Assembly: GCF_006442545.2 (NCBI RefSeq)
Contig: NZ_CP083952.1
Location: 744,001 to 808,000 of the forward strand
Length of the DNA: 64,000 nucleotides
From: Mesorhizobium sp. B2-1-8
GTDB taxonomy: Bacteria; Pseudomonadota; Alphaproteobacteria; Rhizobiales; Rhizobiaceae
Direction of reading: 5' to 3'
Below the pieces are notes generated by a model that saw only the letters and a list, made by a program, of their open reading frames with translations, did no database searches and had not been told where the DNA came from. Positions 2,747-33,631 of the stretch are shown piece after piece. Both the position numbers and the translations under genes were made by a program. Position 1 is the stretch's first letter. Each line of letters opens with the position of its first letter.

Positions 2747-2829
2747 TGTCGAAACCCGAAATGCTGGGACTACGGATATGCCACAGTTTGGAAAGGTGTT
2801 TTACGGCGGCATCTTGACGCAAATATCGT

Positions 2830-2840
2830 TTGTATACTAA
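2830..2840. promoter_or_regulatory. Candidate GntR/FCD-type operator in the hyuA-fpr divergent region
   Basis: The sequence TTGTATACTAA lies between divergent hyuA and fpr. It is one base from the palindromic TTGTATACAA core bound by several FadR/FCD-subfamily GntR regulators (established knowledge). No such regulator gene is adjacent in this window. The call rests on motif and position only. Confidence 0.35.
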
Positions 2841-2965
2841 TAAATTCCGGACACAAGAGCTTACCGCTTCGGTAGCGTGCATGGCACGCCGGAACCTGAA
2901 TGGTCCGGGCGCGCACGGGAAAGTTTGGCGCCCGCGTCTGTAATTGGGCGAGAAGGTTGGAATTG

Positions 2966-3793
2966 ATGAATACCACGCCCGCGTTCAATACCGCTGAAGC
3001 CCGCCCGCTACAGTTTCCGATTCCGGCCAATGTCTATGCCGAAACCGTCGTCTCGGTGAAGCACTACACCGACCGGCTGTTCTCGTTCCGCATCACGCGC
3101 CCGCAGTCGCTGCGTTTCCGCTCCGGCGAATTCGTCATGATCGGCCTGCCCAATGCCGAGAAGCCGGTGTACCGCGCCTACTCCGTCGCCAGCCCGGCCT
3201 GGGACGAAGAGCTGGAATTCTTCTCGATCAAGGTACCGGATGGCCCGCTGACCTCGGAACTGCAGAAGATCCAGGTCGGCGACACGGTCATCATGCGCCA
3301 GAAGTCCACCGGCACGCTGGTGGTCGACGCACTGACCCCGGCCAAGCGCCTGTTCATGATCTCGACCGGCACCGGCATCGCGCCCTTCGCCAGCCTGCTG
3401 CGCGACCCCGACACCTACGAGAAATTCGATCAGCTGATCCTGACCCACACCTGCCGCGACAATGCCGAGCTGATCTACGGCCAGGAGTTGGTGGCGGCAC
3501 TGGAAAGCGACCCGCTGATCGGCGAGCTGACCGCCGGCCGCGTCACGCTGTACAATTCGACGACCCGCGAGGAGTCGGCGCGCATGGGCCGCATCACCGC
3601 GCTGATCGGCTCCGGCAAGTTCTACAGCGATCTCGGCATCGAGAAGCTCGATCCAGAGACCGACCGCATCATGATCTGCGGCTCGATGCACATGCTGAAG
3701 GACGTCAAGGAGCTGGCCGAAAGCCTCGGCTTCCAGGAAGGCTCGCTCAGCCATCCCTCGAGCTTCGTCGTCGAGCGCGCCTTCGTCGGCTGA
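2966..3793 (+). CDS. fpr: Ferredoxin/flavodoxin-NADP+ reductase
   Basis: 275 residues from ATG 2966, chosen over an upstream in-frame ATG at 2900 because GAGAAGG sits about 9 nt before it and the extra N-terminus is not family-like. It has the FAD-binding YRAYSVASP (RxYS motif), the NADP pyrophosphate loop STGTGIAPFASLLRD, and ICGSMHMLKDVKEL. The C-terminus VERAFVG is the usual ending of bacterial-type FPR. It transfers electrons between NADPH and ferredoxin or flavodoxin in the cytoplasm. It appears monocistronic, with a hairpin at 3820-3839 downstream. Confidence 0.93.
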   Translation: MNTTPAFNTAEARPLQFPIPANVYAETVVSVKHYTDRLFSFRITRPQSLRFRSGEFVMIGLPNAEKPVYRAYSVASPAWDEELEFFSIKVPDGPLTSELQKIQVGDTVIMRQKSTGTLVVDALTPAKRLFMISTGTGIAPFASLLRDPDTYEKFDQLILTHTCRDNAELIYGQELVAALESDPLIGELTAGRVTLYNSTTREESARMGRITALIGSGKFYSDLGIEKLDPETDRIMICGSMHMLKDVKELAESLGFQEGSLSHPSSFVVERAFVG

Positions 3794-24378: not shown

Positions 24379-24504
24379 AGAGCGGTTCAGTGTCTGTTGG
24401 AATTGCCGAACAGCTCTAACTCTTTGTTTTCCCGCAATTCCCAAGGGAAAGCGCTACGCGCTTTTCCCGGGAAAACCGCTACGCACTTTTCCTGGAATTG
24501 CTCT
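24379..24504. repeat. RIME-like rhizobial repeat C1, abutting the rpe stop codon
   Basis: It starts AGAGCGGTTCAG, contains CTCTAACTCTTTGTTTTC, and ends CTTTTCCTGGAATTGCTCT. The same block order occurs at 37671-37772. This copy has an extra hairpin (GGGAAAGCGCTACGCGCTTTTCCC). Its right edge merges with the rpe stop codon (24503-24505). Confidence 0.8.
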
Positions 24505-25180
24505 AGCCGGCGGCCTTGTCGGCCGTGGTCCTAATGGCTTCGATGTTGGCGCGGTAAGCCTCGACACTGCCACCTTTGAAGATGGCAGCACCCGCCACCA
24601 GCACGTCGGCGCCGGCTGACGTGACCAGCGGCGCGGTTTCCGGCGAGACACCGCCGTCGATCTCGATGCGGATCGGCCGGTCACCGATCAACGCCTTGAC
24701 CCTTTTCACCTTGTCGACCATTGCCGGGATGAAGGCCTGTCCGCCGAAACCCGGATTGACGGTCATGATCAGGATCAGGTCGAGCCGGTCGAGCACATAT
24801 TCGACGGCGCTTTCCGGCGTCGCCGGATTGAGCGAGACGCCGGCCTTCTTGCCGAGGTTCCTGATGGTCTGCAGCGAGCGGTCGAGATGCGGCCCGGCCT
24901 CGGCATGCACCGTCATGCCGTCGCAGCCGGCCTCGGCGAAGGCGGCGAGGTAGGGATCGGCGGGCGCGATCATCAGGTGGCAGTCGAAAAAGGCCTTGGT
25001 GCGGTTGCGGATCGCCTTGATGACAGGCGGCCCGAAAGTGATGTTCGGCACGAAATGCCCATCCATCACGTCGAGATGGATCCAGTCGGCACCGGCCGCC
25101 GCCACCGCCTCGACCTCGTCACCAAGCTTCGAGAAATCCGATGCCAGCACCGACGGTGCGATCAAGGTTTTTTTGCTCAT
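24503..25180 (-). CDS. rpe: Ribulose-phosphate 3-epimerase
   Basis: 225 residues, usual length. It interconverts ribulose-5-phosphate and xylulose-5-phosphate in the pentose phosphate/Calvin pathways. TIM-barrel motifs: [14 protein letters not shown] at residue 7, [12 protein letters not shown] (catalytic Asp, metal His), [19 protein letters not shown] and IDGGVSPET. It is preceded by a short intergenic gap and followed at once by a RIME-like repeat whose edge supplies the stop codon. Confidence 0.95.
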
Positions 25181-25334
25181 CTCGCGGCCTTTCCGGGCGC
25201 CCTTTTCATACGGACGCCCCGAACCGACTGCCTAAAGCGCTGCCGCCGACTTGTCGAGGGCACAAGCGCGGTTCCACAGGGTGGTGTCACGGCGCCGATC
25301 TTGTCGCCGCCAATCACCACCTGACCTGATCATA

Positions 25335-25372
25335 AAGAAAACCCGCCGGACTGCTCCGGCGGGTTCTCGTTT
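25335..25372 (-). terminator. Rho-independent terminator for the secreted-protein operon
   Basis: On the minus strand, AACCCGCCGGA, loop GCAG, TCCGGCGGGTT is followed by TTCTTTAT. The 11-bp GC-rich stem plus U-run lies about 20 bp beyond the stop of the 1286-residue protein gene. Confidence 0.8.
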
Positions 25373-25388
25373 GGCGTCGCGCGGGTGG

Positions 25389-28300
25389 TTACTGCTGCTG
25401 GAGTTTCAGGAGCCTGTTTGGAACCGGATCCTGTTGCTGGTCGATCTGCTGCCTGCGTCGCGGCAGCAATTGCAGCAACTGGCCCGGATCGATTTCCAGC
25501 GATGGCTGTCCGCGTATCGGCCGGCAGTTCGGATACCGCCCGATCGTACCCTCCGGACAGTGTCGCCTGAAGATCGGCTGGCACTGGCCGTTGACCATCT
25601 GCGAGCCCGGCGCGCATTCGCTCTGTTGCCTGGGCTTGCGGCAGGCGCCGTCGATCACCTCGGTCCCACGCGGACAGACGCATTCGCCGCGCTTGTTGTG
25701 GACCTGGCCGCGTATGTCGCACTGCTGCATGTCAGGCTGCTTGCGCCGGCAGGCATTGCCTTGCACCTCGGTACCCCTCGGGCAGAAGCAATTGCCATCG
25801 GAGTCATGGACCTGGCCACGAATGGTGCACTGGTCAGGCTTCGGCCGGATCGGGCGGCAGGCGCCGTCGCGCACCTCGGTGCCTTGCGGGCAGACACAGT
25901 CCCCGTCCGCATTGTGGACCTGGCCACGGATGGTGCACTGCTCGGGCTTCGGCCTGATCGGGCGGCAGGCCCGGTCTCGCACCTCGGTGCCTTGCGGGCA
26001 GACGCAGTCGCCATCCGCATTGTGGATCTGGCCGCGGATGGTGCACTGCTCGGGCTTCGGCCTGATCGGGCGGCAGGCGCCGTCACGCACCTCGGTGCCG
26101 CGCGGGCAGACACAGTCCCCGTCCGCATTGTGGACCTGGCCACGGATGGTGCACTGCTCGGGCTTGTCGGTCCTGACGCATTTTCCGTTCTCCAGCCCCG
26201 TGCCGCGCGGGCAGACACAGCGTCCGTCCTCGGTGCGGATCTGGCCTTCGAGCAGGACGCAGCGCGGTGGCGGCGGCAGTGGCAATGGCAGAAGGTTGGT
26301 GCCGCCGCCAGTGCACTGGCCGTTGCGGAAGGTGGTGCCTTTCGGGCAGACGCAGCGGCCGGCGTCGTTCATGACGAAGCTCGGCGAACACTGGTTCTTC
26401 ACCTCATGCGTGATGGTGAAGGGATGGCACGCATAGGCCTTGCCGCGATCGCCCTGCCCGTTGGTCGCATCCTTGGACAGCACGTCGCCGCCCTGCACCC
26501 GTGTGTCGGGAGACAGCACGCCGACGCAGTTCTGGCCACTGACGTTGCCCTGCAGGTTGGCCAGGCGCCCGTCGCCGGGAATGACCACCGTCACATGGTG
26601 CGACTGGCTTTCGCCGGCGCCGAGCGTCAAGTTGGCGATGCAGGAGGCCGGCAGCGTCGTCGGTTCGGGCGAGCAACCGAAGGGCGGGTCGATCGAAGTG
26701 ATCGCAACGCCATCCAGCCGGCCAAGCCCGTCCACGCCGATCGCATCGCCGATGCGGACCGGACCCGAGAAGGGGCTCGTCCCGTCATTGGATATAGTGA
26801 TGTCGAACGAGCAGGGCTGGCCGACGCGGCACTCGCGGTCGCCGGTCTTCTCGACACGAATGGTCGAGGAGCCGCCGCCCTTGGCGCAGGCCTGGCCGAT
26901 CGGATAGACGACGTCGTCGCCCTGTGCCGGGCCATAGGAGCCCCGCGCGCAGTTCTCGAACTCGCCATTGGCCGAGACAGTCACGTCGAAGTGCCTGGAG
27001 GTTCCGGGCGTCATGACGGCGCCGGGAATCTGGCACGACAACGTATTGGCCGGAACCGGTCCGCACGCCCATTCCGCGCCGTCGGGGGTGACGGTCTGGA
27101 TCTGGACAGGCGCTCCGCCCGACACCAGCGTGGCGGCATCGTTGACCCGTACCGGACCGGTGGGGGCAGCCGTACCGACGCTGGTGACGGTGATGCGGCA
27201 GGAAACCACTGCTGCACCCGCCAGCGAGCCGCTGCAGACCTTGGTGATGCGCAAGGTCGGCTGGCCGCCATTGGGATGGCGGATGCGTTCCTTGGCGCAG
27301 GCCCTGTTGTTGGTGAGATCGACCTCACCGGGGATGGCCTTCACCTCGGCGCAGTTCTCGACCGTGTCCGACCGATAGCTGGCCGGCACCACCGCCTTGA
27401 CGAAGATCGGCGTCGAGGCGCCCGCGGGCAGCGAGATGCCGGCATTGTCGCAGCGGAACTGGCCGGGGCCGTTCGGGCCGCAGGTCCAGGGCGGGCTCGG
27501 TCCGAAGGTCGAGGACGTCGGCGCGCCGCTTGGGTAGTTGTCGATCACCGTCAGCGGACCGTTATAGGTCGATGTACCGTTGTTGATGATGTCGATGATG
27601 AAGGTGCAGACGCCATCGGCGGTGCAGACTTCGGTGCGGGCACGCTTCTTGAGGATCAGGTCGACCTTCTTCTCGACCGGCGGCTGGCAATCCGGGTTGC
27701 GGTCGCCGCGGCGGCAGATCGGGATCGAGGCGCAGCCACGGTCATTGGCCTGGCTGCCGAACAGCGGCTTGCCGCTGGCGCCGTAATTGTAGGTGGCGCA
27801 GTTGCGCAGCACGCTGCCTTGCCAGCCTCCGGCCGGCCTGAAGCCGAGCTTGAGGTCGACAAAGGCCCCCGGATTGAGCGTGGTCACCGGATAGGTGCAC
27901 GTCATCGGGGTGGTTCCCGGCGCGCAGACCCAGGGCGGATTGGGTCCTGAAGTCAGCGTCGAGCCGGCCGGCAGCGTCACCTCGTCGAGCACGATCTTGC
28001 CGTTGTAGGGCGCTGTGCCGACATTGGTGACGCGGATGGTGAAGTCGCACCCGCCGGCCACGGTGCAGCGCGGAACGTCGGCGCGTTTCTCGACCTTGAG
28101 GTCCGGCTCCTTGTCCCGGGGCGGGCATCTCTGGTCACGCGGAATGACGATGTCGATGGTTTGCGTGCAGCACAGGCCCCAGCCCTCCTTCGGCCCGGCA
28201 TAGGTCTCGATGCCGGTGACGATGAGGTGGATGACGTCGCCGGGTGACGCGCCGACGATCTTCCAGTCGAGCACGCCCCCGCCCGCCGGCACCTTCTGGG

Positions 28301-29249
28301 TGTCGGGGATGATGGTGATGCCTGATGAGGTCGTCGAAACCTGCACCCACTTGCCGCCCATCTCCGGGCCGACCGGCATGTGGTAGATGAAGGCGCCGCC
28401 GCCAGGCACGCAGTCGACGGTGCCGCGCTCGACCTTGAAGCATTCATGGTCGGTGGGAGGCGGAGGCTGCTTGTCGCATTTGGTGAGGTCGATCCGGATC
28501 GAGGTCTTTTCGCCGGTCGCGATGTTGCCATCGTCCGGCTTGCCCGGATCCTGCGACGGGATGATGGTTCCCGTGCCGACGCCGCCGGTGACCTTGATCA
28601 GGCCCTGATTGTCGACATTGACCGGCGCCGGAAACGCGGCGTGGTCGATCTTGGCCGTGATGCGGAAGGTGATGACGCGTTCGTTCGGTGCGCCCGAGCC
28701 ATCGAGATCGCTGGCGGAAATCCGGAAATCGGAAACCGTTGCCGTATCGTTGGGTCCGGCCGAATTGCTGACGACAGCACTCGGCAAGGCCCCACCCGAT
28801 GCATCGGTGCCGTCGCCGGATACCGTCACGTTGACGATCGAAAGACCGTGCGGAAGCTGGTCCTTGAACTCGAGCTTGGCTTTCTTCAGCGCCGCCTCGA
28901 GGCCCGGATCGGCAAAGCCCTGCGGATTGCCGCGCAGGCCGAAGGTCAAGGTGTAGAAGACAGAGTCGCAGCTGCGCTGGCCACCGGTCTTGGTGAAGAA
29001 CGGCACGACACGTCCGGGTTCCGGGTTGATGATGCGCGGATTGTCGAGCTGCAGCTGCACATCCGGGCTGGTGACGGCCTGGACGGCCTGCGCGGCGGAT
29101 GCCGGCAGTGCGGGCGCAAGGGCGACCGCGATACCGGCCGCCATCAGCCAGCGCGCACCGCGCCTGGCATATGACAGGGGTTTCATGATCGTCTCCATGA
29201 CGGTTTTTTGCGTTTCGGTCGCGAGCGGGGAGGGGGCAAGAATGGTCAT
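25389..29249 (-). CDS. Large secreted DUF11-like protein with 36-residue Cys-repeat array
   Basis: 1286 residues from ATG 29249 (GAGGAGG 5 nt upstream). A signal peptide ends near ASA-A (about residue 53). Residues 60-260 are unassigned. Residues 270-375 form a Cys-containing domain also found at the C-terminus of the upstream gene product. Four DUF11-like beta repeats follow (about 384-515, 528-655, 664-790, 796-945), each with VEK/LKK-type openings and NxGT motifs. A proline run (988-996) precedes five 36-residue repeats (1031-1210) of the form CTIRGQVHNADGDCVCP..GTEV, with degenerate units on both sides. The tail is Gln/Arg-rich. No anchor or sorting signal is evident. A surface or matrix role is inferred; the function is unknown. 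Confidence 0.85.
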   Translation of the reverse strand: MTILAPSPLATETQKTVMETIMKPLSYARRGARWLMAAGIAVALAPALPASAAQAVQAVTSPDVQLQLDNPRIINPEPGRVVPFFTKTGGQRSCDSVFYTLTFGLRGNPQGFADPGLEAALKKAKLEFKDQLPHGLSIVNVTVSGDGTDASGGALPSAVVSNSAGPNDTATVSDFRISASDLDGSGAPNERVITFRITAKIDHAAFPAPVNVDNQGLIKVTGGVGTGTIIPSQDPGKPDDGNIATGEKTSIRIDLTKCDKQPPPPTDHECFKVERGTVDCVPGGGAFIYHMPVGPEMGGKWVQVSTTSSGITIIPDTQKVPAGGGVLDWKIVGASPGDVIHLIVTGIETYAGPKEGWGLCCTQTIDIVIPRDQRCPPRDKEPDLKVEKRADVPRCTVAGGCDFTIRVTNVGTAPYNGKIVLDEVTLPAGSTLTSGPNPPWVCAPGTTPMTCTYPVTTLNPGAFVDLKLGFRPAGGWQGSVLRNCATYNYGASGKPLFGSQANDRGCASIPICRRGDRNPDCQPPVEKKVDLILKKRARTEVCTADGVCTFIIDIINNGTSTYNGPLTVIDNYPSGAPTSSTFGPSPPWTCGPNGPGQFRCDNAGISLPAGASTPIFVKAVVPASYRSDTVENCAEVKAIPGEVDLTNNRACAKERIRHPNGGQPTLRITKVCSGSLAGAAVVSCRITVTSVGTAAPTGPVRVNDAATLVSGGAPVQIQTVTPDGAEWACGPVPANTLSCQIPGAVMTPGTSRHFDVTVSANGEFENCARGSYGPAQGDDVVYPIGQACAKGGGSSTIRVEKTGDRECRVGQPCSFDITISNDGTSPFSGPVRIGDAIGVDGLGRLDGVAITSIDPPFGCSPEPTTLPASCIANLTLGAGESQSHHVTVVIPGDGRLANLQGNVSGQNCVGVLSPDTRVQGGDVLSKDATNGQGDRGKAYACHPFTITHEVKNQCSPSFVMNDAGRCVCPKGTTFRNGQCTGGGTNLLPLPLPPPPRCVLLEGQIRTEDGRCVCPRGTGLENGKCVRTDKPEQCTIRGQVHNADGDCVCPRGTEVRDGACRPIRPKPEQCTIRGQIHNADGDCVCPQGTEVRDRACRPIRPKPEQCTIRGQVHNADGDCVCPQGTEVRDGACRPIRPKPDQCTIRGQVHDSDGNCFCPRGTEVQGNACRRKQPDMQQCDIRGQVHNKRGECVCPRGTEVIDGACRKPRQQSECAPGSQMVNGQCQPIFRRHCPEGTIGRYPNCRPIRGQPSLEIDPGQLLQLLPRRRQQIDQQQDPVPNRLLKLQQQ
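25677..26216 (-). repeat. Five tandem 108-bp in-frame repeats
   Basis: The marker GGTGCACTG recurs at 25824, 25932, 26040 and 26148, exactly 108 bp apart, giving 36-residue protein units. The three units nearest the proline run are almost identical at DNA level and the last two have diverged. This suggests recent unequal exchange or slippage. Coordinates are approximate. Confidence 0.85.
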
Positions 29250-29259
29250 CTTTGCCTCC

Positions 29260-31224
29260 TCAACGTTCGCAGCTGACGGCTGGGGTGCGGAGCGGCAAGG
29301 TCATCTTGCAGCAAGGGTAGTAGCCACCCTTGTCCTTGTCGGACTTCCTGTAGAAGCACAGCCCGACATCCACTCTGTCGCCCGGATAGTGGCCGGTGAT
29401 GTCGATCGTGTACGGCTTGCCTGGCGCATGCGACATGGGTGAGGTCACCCCGACGCCTGGCGTCCTGGATTGGGCCTTGATCGAATCGCCGCCGAAGCCG
29501 GCATGGTCATGGAGATAGAGATCGGCCTCGAGGCCGCGCGGCGTGCAGTAATACTGCACGGCCTCGACATCGAGACACGGAGGCAGATTGCCGGGCGGTG
29601 GGAAGTCCGGCGGGTAGAAAGGAGACTCATAGCCGCCCGGGATTTCCTCATAATAGCCGGCACGGCCCTCGCAGGGGTGCCAGACGGCGACGTCACCGAC
29701 ATGGCCTTCCACTTCGGGATCCTCGAAATAGCCGTCGAAATCGACGAACCAGGAGCCGAAGGGCGGCACGTTGGCCGGCTTGACCAGCTCCTTGGGCGTG
29801 ATCTGCACGCCATGCACGGCAAGCGGCCCGCCGGCGGCGAGCTTTTCGGCAAGTGTGGGGTTGTCGCGCAATTTGTCGCCGGTGTTGACCAAGGTCTGGG
29901 TGCACACCGAAGTGTCGAGATTGCCGTCGGCATCGTAGCCATATTGCAGGTCGAGGCCGCCGGCCGACTGCCTGTTGCCTTGCGGGAAGCCGACCGCATA
30001 TTCCTGCGGTGCCTCCACCCAGACCGATTCCGTCGCGGGATCGTCCGGATTTTCTCTGAAGTAGCGGATGACCTCGCCCTTGCCGGAATCGGCGAAGCGG
30101 CTGTAGTCGTAGCGGTTTTCGACCGGGCCGCGCTGGGCTAGGTACATGAAGCCGCTGTTGTCGAAGGCAATGTCGGTGACGGCGTAGTCCTTGTCGGCCC
30201 TGACCGTCAGTTCCCAGCGCGGATCGCCGGCGAAGGTGCCGTCGCGGGCAATGCCCACCGACCAGATTTCCGATTTTTCGCCAACCGAATAGTAGAGGCG
30301 GCCGCCATGATAGGAGACGGCCCAGACGCGGCGCTCATCCTGGGTGTAGCCCCAGCTGTCGGGGTCTTCGGTGTCGAAAGCCGCGCCCTGTATGTCCATC
30401 ACCGCGCCATCATCGGCGACGGGAGCCAGCCCATGCGCCGGTCGCCCGGCGACGCCGTGATCGAACGTGTCGACCAGTCTGCCGTTGGCGTCGATGCGAT
30501 GGATCACGCCGGTATCGAGGTCGGAAGCGAAGAACTGGCGGTGGACGGGATCGAAGGTGATATTGCCGATGCCGGGACCGCTGTTGGTGTCGATGTCGGC
30601 GAATTTGACGACCTGGCCGGTGATGCCGTCGATCTTCCAGATGGTGCCCGGTCCGCCGCCGTTTTCGGTGCCGAACTGGCCCTCCATGAAGGTGGCGCCG
30701 GCCGTTCCGCGGCGCTGCCGCTCCGGCCTGCCGTCCTTGTCGGCGTCCGGCGTGACGATCTCGATGCCATGCAGCGAGGTCGCGGCGGCATAGAGGTTGG
30801 GAATGCCGGACGGCACCCCGTCGCGCACGCCGTCATCATAGGTAAGGCCGAACACCTCGCCGATCTGGCCCGCCGTCACCTCGAAAGGCGGCGGCGTGAA
30901 GACGAGCTGGCCCGACGCCGGACCACCCAGGTGCGAAACGTCGAACACGCGCAAAGTGGCGCGCGAAGTGTCGATGAAGGTTTCGTCGATCGGATCGACG
31001 CCGGGCGGCAGCCCCTCGTCGAAATTGGGGATGATGGTGCCGGGAAAGCCGGTGACCGCCATCGAGCCTGGATAGATGATCTGGGTTTCCTGCGCCCGGG
31101 CGGCGCCTCCAAGGCACAGGCTGGCGGCAACCACCAGCGCCAGCAAGCCGCCGGCCTGCAATGCACCGCGCAAGCGGCCGTCAAAGTCAAAAGAAGACAC
31201 GAACGTGCCGCGGACGCGAGACAT
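29260..31224 (-). CDS. Secreted protein, probable beta-propeller-like, with C-terminal Cys domain
   Basis: 654 residues from ATG 31224 (GGGGGTAG upstream). The frame stays open to 31473 but that part is not signal-like. A signal peptide spans GALQAGGLLALVVAASLCLG to about ARAQ (residue 44). The middle (about 60-480) has repeating WKID, HRID, DIQG and DIAFDNSGFMYLAQRG segments resembling NHL/PQQ-type propeller blades. Residues 550-654 form a domain with six cysteines (CLDVEA, YYCTPRG, GLCFYRK, YYPCCK) that aligns with residues 270-375 of the next gene product. That gene starts 11 bp beyond its stop. Function unknown. Confidence 0.78.
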   Translation of the reverse strand: MSRVRGTFVSSFDFDGRLRGALQAGGLLALVVAASLCLGGAARAQETQIIYPGSMAVTGFPGTIIPNFDEGLPPGVDPIDETFIDTSRATLRVFDVSHLGGPASGQLVFTPPPFEVTAGQIGEVFGLTYDDGVRDGVPSGIPNLYAAATSLHGIEIVTPDADKDGRPERQRRGTAGATFMEGQFGTENGGGPGTIWKIDGITGQVVKFADIDTNSGPGIGNITFDPVHRQFFASDLDTGVIHRIDANGRLVDTFDHGVAGRPAHGLAPVADDGAVMDIQGAAFDTEDPDSWGYTQDERRVWAVSYHGGRLYYSVGEKSEIWSVGIARDGTFAGDPRWELTVRADKDYAVTDIAFDNSGFMYLAQRGPVENRYDYSRFADSGKGEVIRYFRENPDDPATESVWVEAPQEYAVGFPQGNRQSAGGLDLQYGYDADGNLDTSVCTQTLVNTGDKLRDNPTLAEKLAAGGPLAVHGVQITPKELVKPANVPPFGSWFVDFDGYFEDPEVEGHVGDVAVWHPCEGRAGYYEEIPGGYESPFYPPDFPPPGNLPPCLDVEAVQYYCTPRGLEADLYLHDHAGFGGDSIKAQSRTPGVGVTSPMSHAPGKPYTIDITGHYPGDRVDVGLCFYRKSDKDKGGYYPCCKMTLPLRTPAVSCER

Positions 31225-31714: not shown

Positions 31715-33631
<1,917 letters not shown>

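Follow-up and report, generated by a model that had tools for sequence, protein, structure and literature searches.

The gene pair reported here lies in a 64,000-nucleotide stretch of the genome of Mesorhizobium sp. B2-1-8 (the window; contig NZ_CP083952.1, positions 744,001 to 808,000), and encodes a propeller-like protein, A, and a larger protein, B, whose closest described relatives are the CLIPPER (DUF11) fibrillar adhesins. In the portions of PMC12617251 drawn on here, DUF7929 and DUF11 are isopeptide-bond domains of surface proteins, and DUF7929 is tabulated, with an isopeptide bond predicted in A0A090G7K7. According to the same portions of PMC12617251, the CLIPPER adhesins resemble the pair in having a signal peptide, tandem DUF11 domains with Lys-Asp-Asn triads and an isopeptide domain at the N-terminal end. 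The solved CLIPPER domain 9ifr is matched by the predicted fold of DUF11 unit 1 of B. Unlike in these adhesins, candidate head and stalk are here two proteins, each with a module that is absent from the one-piece forms examined.

Within the same order, one-piece propeller–DUF11 proteins (L053, L126, L127) contain a homologous N-terminal propeller followed by DUF11 units in a single open reading frame (ORF); they differ from the pair in their tails, and in that neither the module nor DUF7929 was found in them. A further parallel, in working only, is cohesin–dockerin, where a dedicated pair of small modules joins two secreted proteins. Cohesin and dockerin have unrelated folds and dockerins bind calcium, whereas modules A and B are Cys-rich homologs.

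An earlier, sequence-only reading of the window was aware of no described system with this layout. No description of the pair was found in the literature under the words searched, and to that extent the claim stands; the domains themselves, DUF7929 and DUF11, are described in the portions of PMC12617251 cited above. Matches in PMC3420878, within its matching portions, concerned DUF1109 and were set aside. The stalk and its domains are of a known kind; its separation from the head, with a module pair exclusive to the two proteins, looks like a new variation on that kind.

We propose, with moderate confidence, that a single fibrillar-adhesin-like surface structure has A as its head and B as its stalk, and that a dedicated pair of modules holds the two together and becomes needless after covalent fusion. 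The observations behind this proposal are the homology of the modules, their exclusive pairing, the folds predicted for the propeller and for the leading domains of B, the one-piece relatives and the module-free fusions; from these we infer physical contact, its module-to-module mode, export and adhesion. Both proteins would leave the cytoplasm through signal peptides. B would fold as a row of immunoglobulin (Ig)-like domains, most of them with isopeptide residues, followed by a Cys-rich tail, and A would contribute a six-bladed propeller as the presumed ligand-binding head. The joint would consist of module A, at the C-terminal end of A, and module B, near the N-terminal end of B, most simply in a heterotypic contact, and would place the head at the N-terminal end of the stalk, the position that it holds covalently in the one-piece relatives. 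A module pair that accompanies separate halves and is absent when they form a single chain is what a joint would be expected to show.

Homologous head and stalk, occurring as one chain or as two, provide a natural experiment on the splitting and fusing of secreted multi-domain proteins, and the presence of the module pair tracks the one- or two-protein state closely in the loci examined. The modules are a candidate for a new extracellular docking pair, which proposes a role for a domain matching no family here, and the system, presumably located at the surface, is common within the legume-symbiont genus Mesorhizobium. A wider evolutionary reading is offered tentatively: a heterotypic pair from one duplication would have turned a one-piece adhesin into two proteins, with a head that could be made separately, exchanged or released. 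Docked and covalent states would have been swapped many times, fusion making the pair redundant, and the assembly may be locked, or rendered sensitive to redox conditions, by the odd Cys in module B.

The shared module and the pairing of its genes

A Cys-containing domain common to A residues 550-654 and B residues 270-375 had been noted by eye in the sequence-only reading, and comparison of this domain of roughly 105 residues bore it out. BLASTP aligned A 542-648 with B 262-370 (23% identity, E 0.003), with a score reached by 0/2000 shuffles of the B region. Profile-profile comparison of modules A and B was significant, with P 9.9e-11 over 97 columns (1.2e-10 for a rebuilt pair). Comparison of either module with DUF7929, the four DUF11 units, the propeller or the tail gave P 0.0082 or worse, so the likeness is specific and does not reflect general Ig-likeness. 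Five Cys, two Gly and one Pro were invariant in 23 diverse modules of both types. No Pfam family was found over the modules; in the predicted models, module A has seven strands and module B has eight. The best match of the module profile among solved structures, a teneurin-like protein (E 0.002), had no stretch passing alone and was taken as chance. In a tree of 69 modules, the A-type and B-type were split by a single branch (100/98), which indicates one duplication without later mixing.

A-type modules on the propeller ORF contained six Cys in 64/64 cases, and B-type modules in the family alignment contained five in 120/120. Modules of the locus set without a propeller on their ORF had five Cys in 61/68. 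Of the seven exceptions, two were A-type modules on their own ORFs (L092, L098), three owed a sixth Cys to the adjoining letters, one was a genuine four-Cys module (B of L092) and one was an antisense false match. The total Cys number of B was odd in 110/120 sequences, and the other B segments were even in nearly all relatives. Because the Cys number of module B is odd and that of the rest of B nearly always even, one B thiol should be unpaired or linked to another chain. Together with the 8 Cys of mature A (119/120 aligned sequences), these counts would fit an alternative in which module B forms B–B homodimers through its odd Cys, whereas its capped paralogue, module A, does a different job. 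We judge this highly improbable, as it explains neither the retention of module A wherever module B is kept nor the joint absence of both modules from fused proteins.

The B2-1-8 genome contains two module copies, and the next match had E 0.995. In a sample of the order, the module was detected in 29/397 genomes with 57 matches; 28 of these genomes had exactly two modules, and G363 had one, its second being weak at 29 bits. The A copies lay within A genes, with their partners nearby on the same strand, and by position the modules in this sample were always on an A/B pair; for G397, G428, G440, G467, G510 and G529, pair membership was judged by position only, without reading the locus. A sample of the class contained the module in 3/384 genomes besides B2-1-8. 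G820 (L144, one match) and G907 (L145) have identical locus sequences and different assigned families, and probably represent shared or misbinned contigs.

Full-length A genes were adjoined by B on the same strand in 65/65 cases (47 in the genus and 18 in the family), a count that left out fused copies and two-gene loci of other families. The gap between the A and B matches was at most 80 bases in 64/65; in G146 it was 914 bases, with the B match starting inside the gene. One B without A was found, at a contig end (G024). Among named genomes, the complete pair was present at 80/80 loci, these being the best 80 of 140 found. Conserved pairing, which the sequence-only reading had proposed to check, was thus observed in both sets, and rare co-occurrence was not seen. 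In a mixed sample including far relatives, A was matched in 65/101 genomes and B in 63/101, and in the genus sample A was matched in 49/61 genomes, B2-1-8 counted.

One-chain and two-chain forms

Fused homologs elsewhere point to an interacting pair (the Rosetta stone criterion), and homologs of A and B do occur elsewhere in one chain. Twenty fusion proteins (P0242-P0261, all the new identifiers in the best 120 of 290 matches) combined the propeller with DUF11 units, and the modules and DUF7929 were all missing from 20/20. The sequence resumed at DUF11 unit 1 in seven (P0250-P0256), at unit 2 in nine and at unit 4 in four. In P0250-P0256, the span from module A through module B was replaced by a joint linking two Cys positions, placed by eye, and two of the seven were without unit 3, as are some B proteins. 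Within the same genus, G016 and G020 carry the pair as one ORF of 1241 or 1250 codons, respectively, flanked by rpe and dnaK, with a joint, again by eye, from just past A Cys 550 to about B residue 504, near the end of DUF11 unit 1. The ratio of nonsynonymous to synonymous substitution rates was 0.41 for this fused gene, which is still constrained, compared with 0.17 for unfused A and 0.23 for unfused B in another genome pair.

A propeller tree of 68 rows required 10 changes between the one- and two-gene states, at least 5 of them on supported branches, and a tree of 78 rows required 7, every one on a supported branch. Not every change has a proven direction, and some placements are uncertain owing to long branches. 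An earlier 67-row tree agreed with these two. The clade of the 78-row tree that includes the window (97/96, 29 rows) comprises 24 two-gene forms with 5 one-piece forms nested among them. Two-gene forms appear to have fused repeatedly.

The loss of the modules in fusions could instead be a by-product of deletion at the gene junction, silent on what the modules do. Their location, at the C-terminal end of A and near the N-terminal end of B, is in line with this, as is the loss of DUF11 unit 1 or more in 13/20 fusions. Yet fusion needs the loss of the stop, the start and the B signal peptide alone, and the modules were kept in 0/20; in the seven fusions that resume at unit 1, the joint, placed by eye, connects the position of the first module A Cys to that of the last module B Cys. 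Several lineages changed state as well, and a by-product would leave the strict pairing unexplained. We consider this account quite improbable.

A set of 138 propeller loci, many of them closely related and therefore not independent, was sorted by ORF length past the propeller, blind to the modules (long, >135 residues). Of the 72/138 long loci, 71 were module-free in the gene and its neighbor; the 72nd, L096 (154 residues past the propeller), is a two-gene locus with both modules. Among the other 66, 62 had a module on both genes. L074 has a module on A, its contig ending inside B, and no module is seen in L121 and L047, which stop close to or at the end of a contig. In L098 (G361:C106), the propeller ORF (998-2743) ends at an in-frame TAG and is followed by module A on its own 123-aa ORF (2747-3115) and then by B; this is a broken or three-piece version. 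DUF11 was recognised in 53 of the 71 module-free long loci, a Cys tail alone in 2, and neither in 16; L043 and L066 have further DUF11 on the next ORF. Two one-piece proteins, L054 1222-3993 and L058 1520-5194, end in extended arrays of short repeats (HRPRGSVV-like, SHLKTGSPHNKLQ-like) that replace the Cys repeats.

Several points weigh against a docked head and stalk. In a mirror-tree analysis of 25 loci, the partial correlation between module A and module B was -0.13, with 270/300 permutations as high; that between the propeller and module B was 0.46, and that between module A and DUF11 unit 4 was 0.38, each with 0/300 permutations. This result suggests that the partner touched by module B might be the propeller and not module A, or that the test is too crude. 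Because the modules lie on both sides of the gene junction, they tend to be lost in any deletion that fuses the genes, regardless of their role, and modules may have been absent from many one-piece loci all along. The stalk of 16 long loci is assumed from length, since neither DUF11 nor a Cys tail was recognised in them. Constraint is somewhat relaxed in the fused genes, and the pair is missing from 12/61 genus genomes, so it is common yet dispensable. No anchor or sorting signal was recognised in the pair, and a simple A–B disulfide is not favored, as B has a spare thiol but A does not.

The mirror-tree values, among which propeller–module B stands out in the absence of a module A–module B link, would fit a reading in which A and B cooperate without the modules being the mutual contact. 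Both might bind one third thing, such as a glycan or an outer-membrane receptor, for which homologous domains could have a common ligand, or module B might touch the propeller. We regard this as unlikely: 20 fusions keep neither module, where a shared anchor would have gone along with the need for co-localisation, and a domain used for targeting should also turn up elsewhere, yet in the genomes sampled the module was found on the pair alone. Co-assembly at the surface, as suggested in the sequence-only reading and retained in our docked head and stalk, agrees with the strict pairing, the pair-only module and the repeated module-free fusions, and finds no counterpart in mirror-tree co-variation of modules A and B.

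Locus layout and domain composition

Gene A lies upstream of gene B on the same strand (Table 1). The genes had been reported as 11 bp apart; their close adjacency holds, and the distance between stop and start is 10 bp. The ORF of gene A could extend upstream to 31473, and its listed relatives have about 654 and about 745 aa. The pair is flanked by what we take, from their translations, to be rpe (24503-25180) and a divergent dnaK (31715-33631), and the host genome (6.87 Mb) is Mesorhizobium-like, its close relatives bearing that genus name. With the locus placed between these genes, a reading as mobile cargo was set aside, phage and plasmid collections lying outside the search. An antisense ORF of 899 aa on the plus strand opposite gene B (25251-27950) is probably a shadow of GC-rich coding DNA.

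Table 1. Positions of genes A and B and their features in the window
Feature	Position	Strand	Basis or length
Gene A, candidate head protein	29260..31224	minus	654 aa
A residues 1-44, probable signal peptide	31093..31224	minus	hydropathy scan; inference
A residues 48-538, six-bladed beta-propeller	29611..31083	minus	predicted fold
A residues 539-549, Pro-rich linker	29578..29610	minus	sequence
A residues 550-654, module A, six Cys	29263..29577	minus	BLASTP, profile comparison, Cys counts
Intergenic gap A-B, 10 bp, GGAGG ahead of B start	29250..29259	minus	
Gene B, candidate stalk protein	25389..29249	minus	1286 aa
B residues 1-53, probable signal peptide	29091..29249	minus	hydropathy scan; inference
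B residues 82-256, DUF7929 (PF25551)	28482..29006	minus	Pfam
B residues 270-375, module B, five Cys	28125..28442	minus	BLASTP, profile comparison, Cys counts
B residues 382-515, DUF11/CLIPPER unit 1	27705..28106	minus	Pfam, predicted fold
B residues 527-663, DUF11 unit 2, K535/D570/N632	27261..27671	minus	Pfam
B residues 664-790, DUF11-like unit 3, K670/D704/N766	26880..27260	minus	bounds by own reading, kept as hidden Markov model; no Pfam match
B residues 793-942, DUF11-like unit 4, K801/D835/N907	26424..26873	minus	bounds by own reading, kept as hidden Markov model; no Pfam match
B residues 955-1240, ~36-aa repeats, four Cys each	25530..26387	minus	sequence; EB domain named in some relatives

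B contains both the tandem DUF11/CLIPPER domains and the Lys-Asp/Glu-Asn triads of CLIPPER-stalk adhesins. Its description as DUF11-like was confirmed by Pfam and, for unit 1, by the predicted fold; the Cys-repeat tail, also described earlier, is visible in the sequence. DUF7929 scored 286.8 bits (Pfam cut-off 27), and its K87, D130 and N214 were present in 120/120 aligned sequences, that of B2-1-8 included. The Lys, Asp and Asn residues are conserved in DUF7929 and in DUF11 units 2-4, and the conserved acidic residue of unit 1 is E423; the triads of the DUF11 units were picked by our own reading of the sequence, and the internal isopeptide bonds are putative.

DUF7929 occurred in 12 of 121 genomes (B2-1-8 counted), in one copy each, all of them module-bearing. 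It was not detected in B of L092-L096, and L092 and L093 leave little room for it, while L147 and L148 have about 700 codons of open frame ahead of module B. The module is retained both in L092 and L093 and, after this long preceding sequence, in L147 and L148. DUF7929 is not essential to the pair. Searched by sequence against solved structures, B gave no match at E 0.1, and the matches of its model that reached the module region were multi-domain proteins (integrins and others) with large root-mean-square deviation (rmsd). The models of A and of B residues 55-525 show no barrel; the genome was not searched for TpsB, the partner in two-partner secretion.

The predicted fold of A agrees with its earlier description as propeller-like. 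Foldseek matches to the model were mostly propellers, with poor rmsd, and the VIA-align alignment spanned residues 50-529 and therefore barely covered module A. Six-bladed YWTD and NHL propellers (nidogen, LRP6, TRIM2) have 9-14% identity to A, and the common fold is no proof of function. A matched 0 families of Pfam and NCBIfam at E 1, and a scan of 48 A relatives gave two weak family matches (E 0.049 and 0.063), in one member each. The profile of A weakly matched diisopropyl-fluorophosphatase among solved structures (95 residues, E 0.0038); an enzyme reading was provisionally set aside, as no catalytic family was matched in Pfam or NCBIfam. A propeller protein in L103 (1390-3801) has a tail that scores as the chitin-binding family CBM_14 (Pfam E 1e-18), with no single stretch passing alone.

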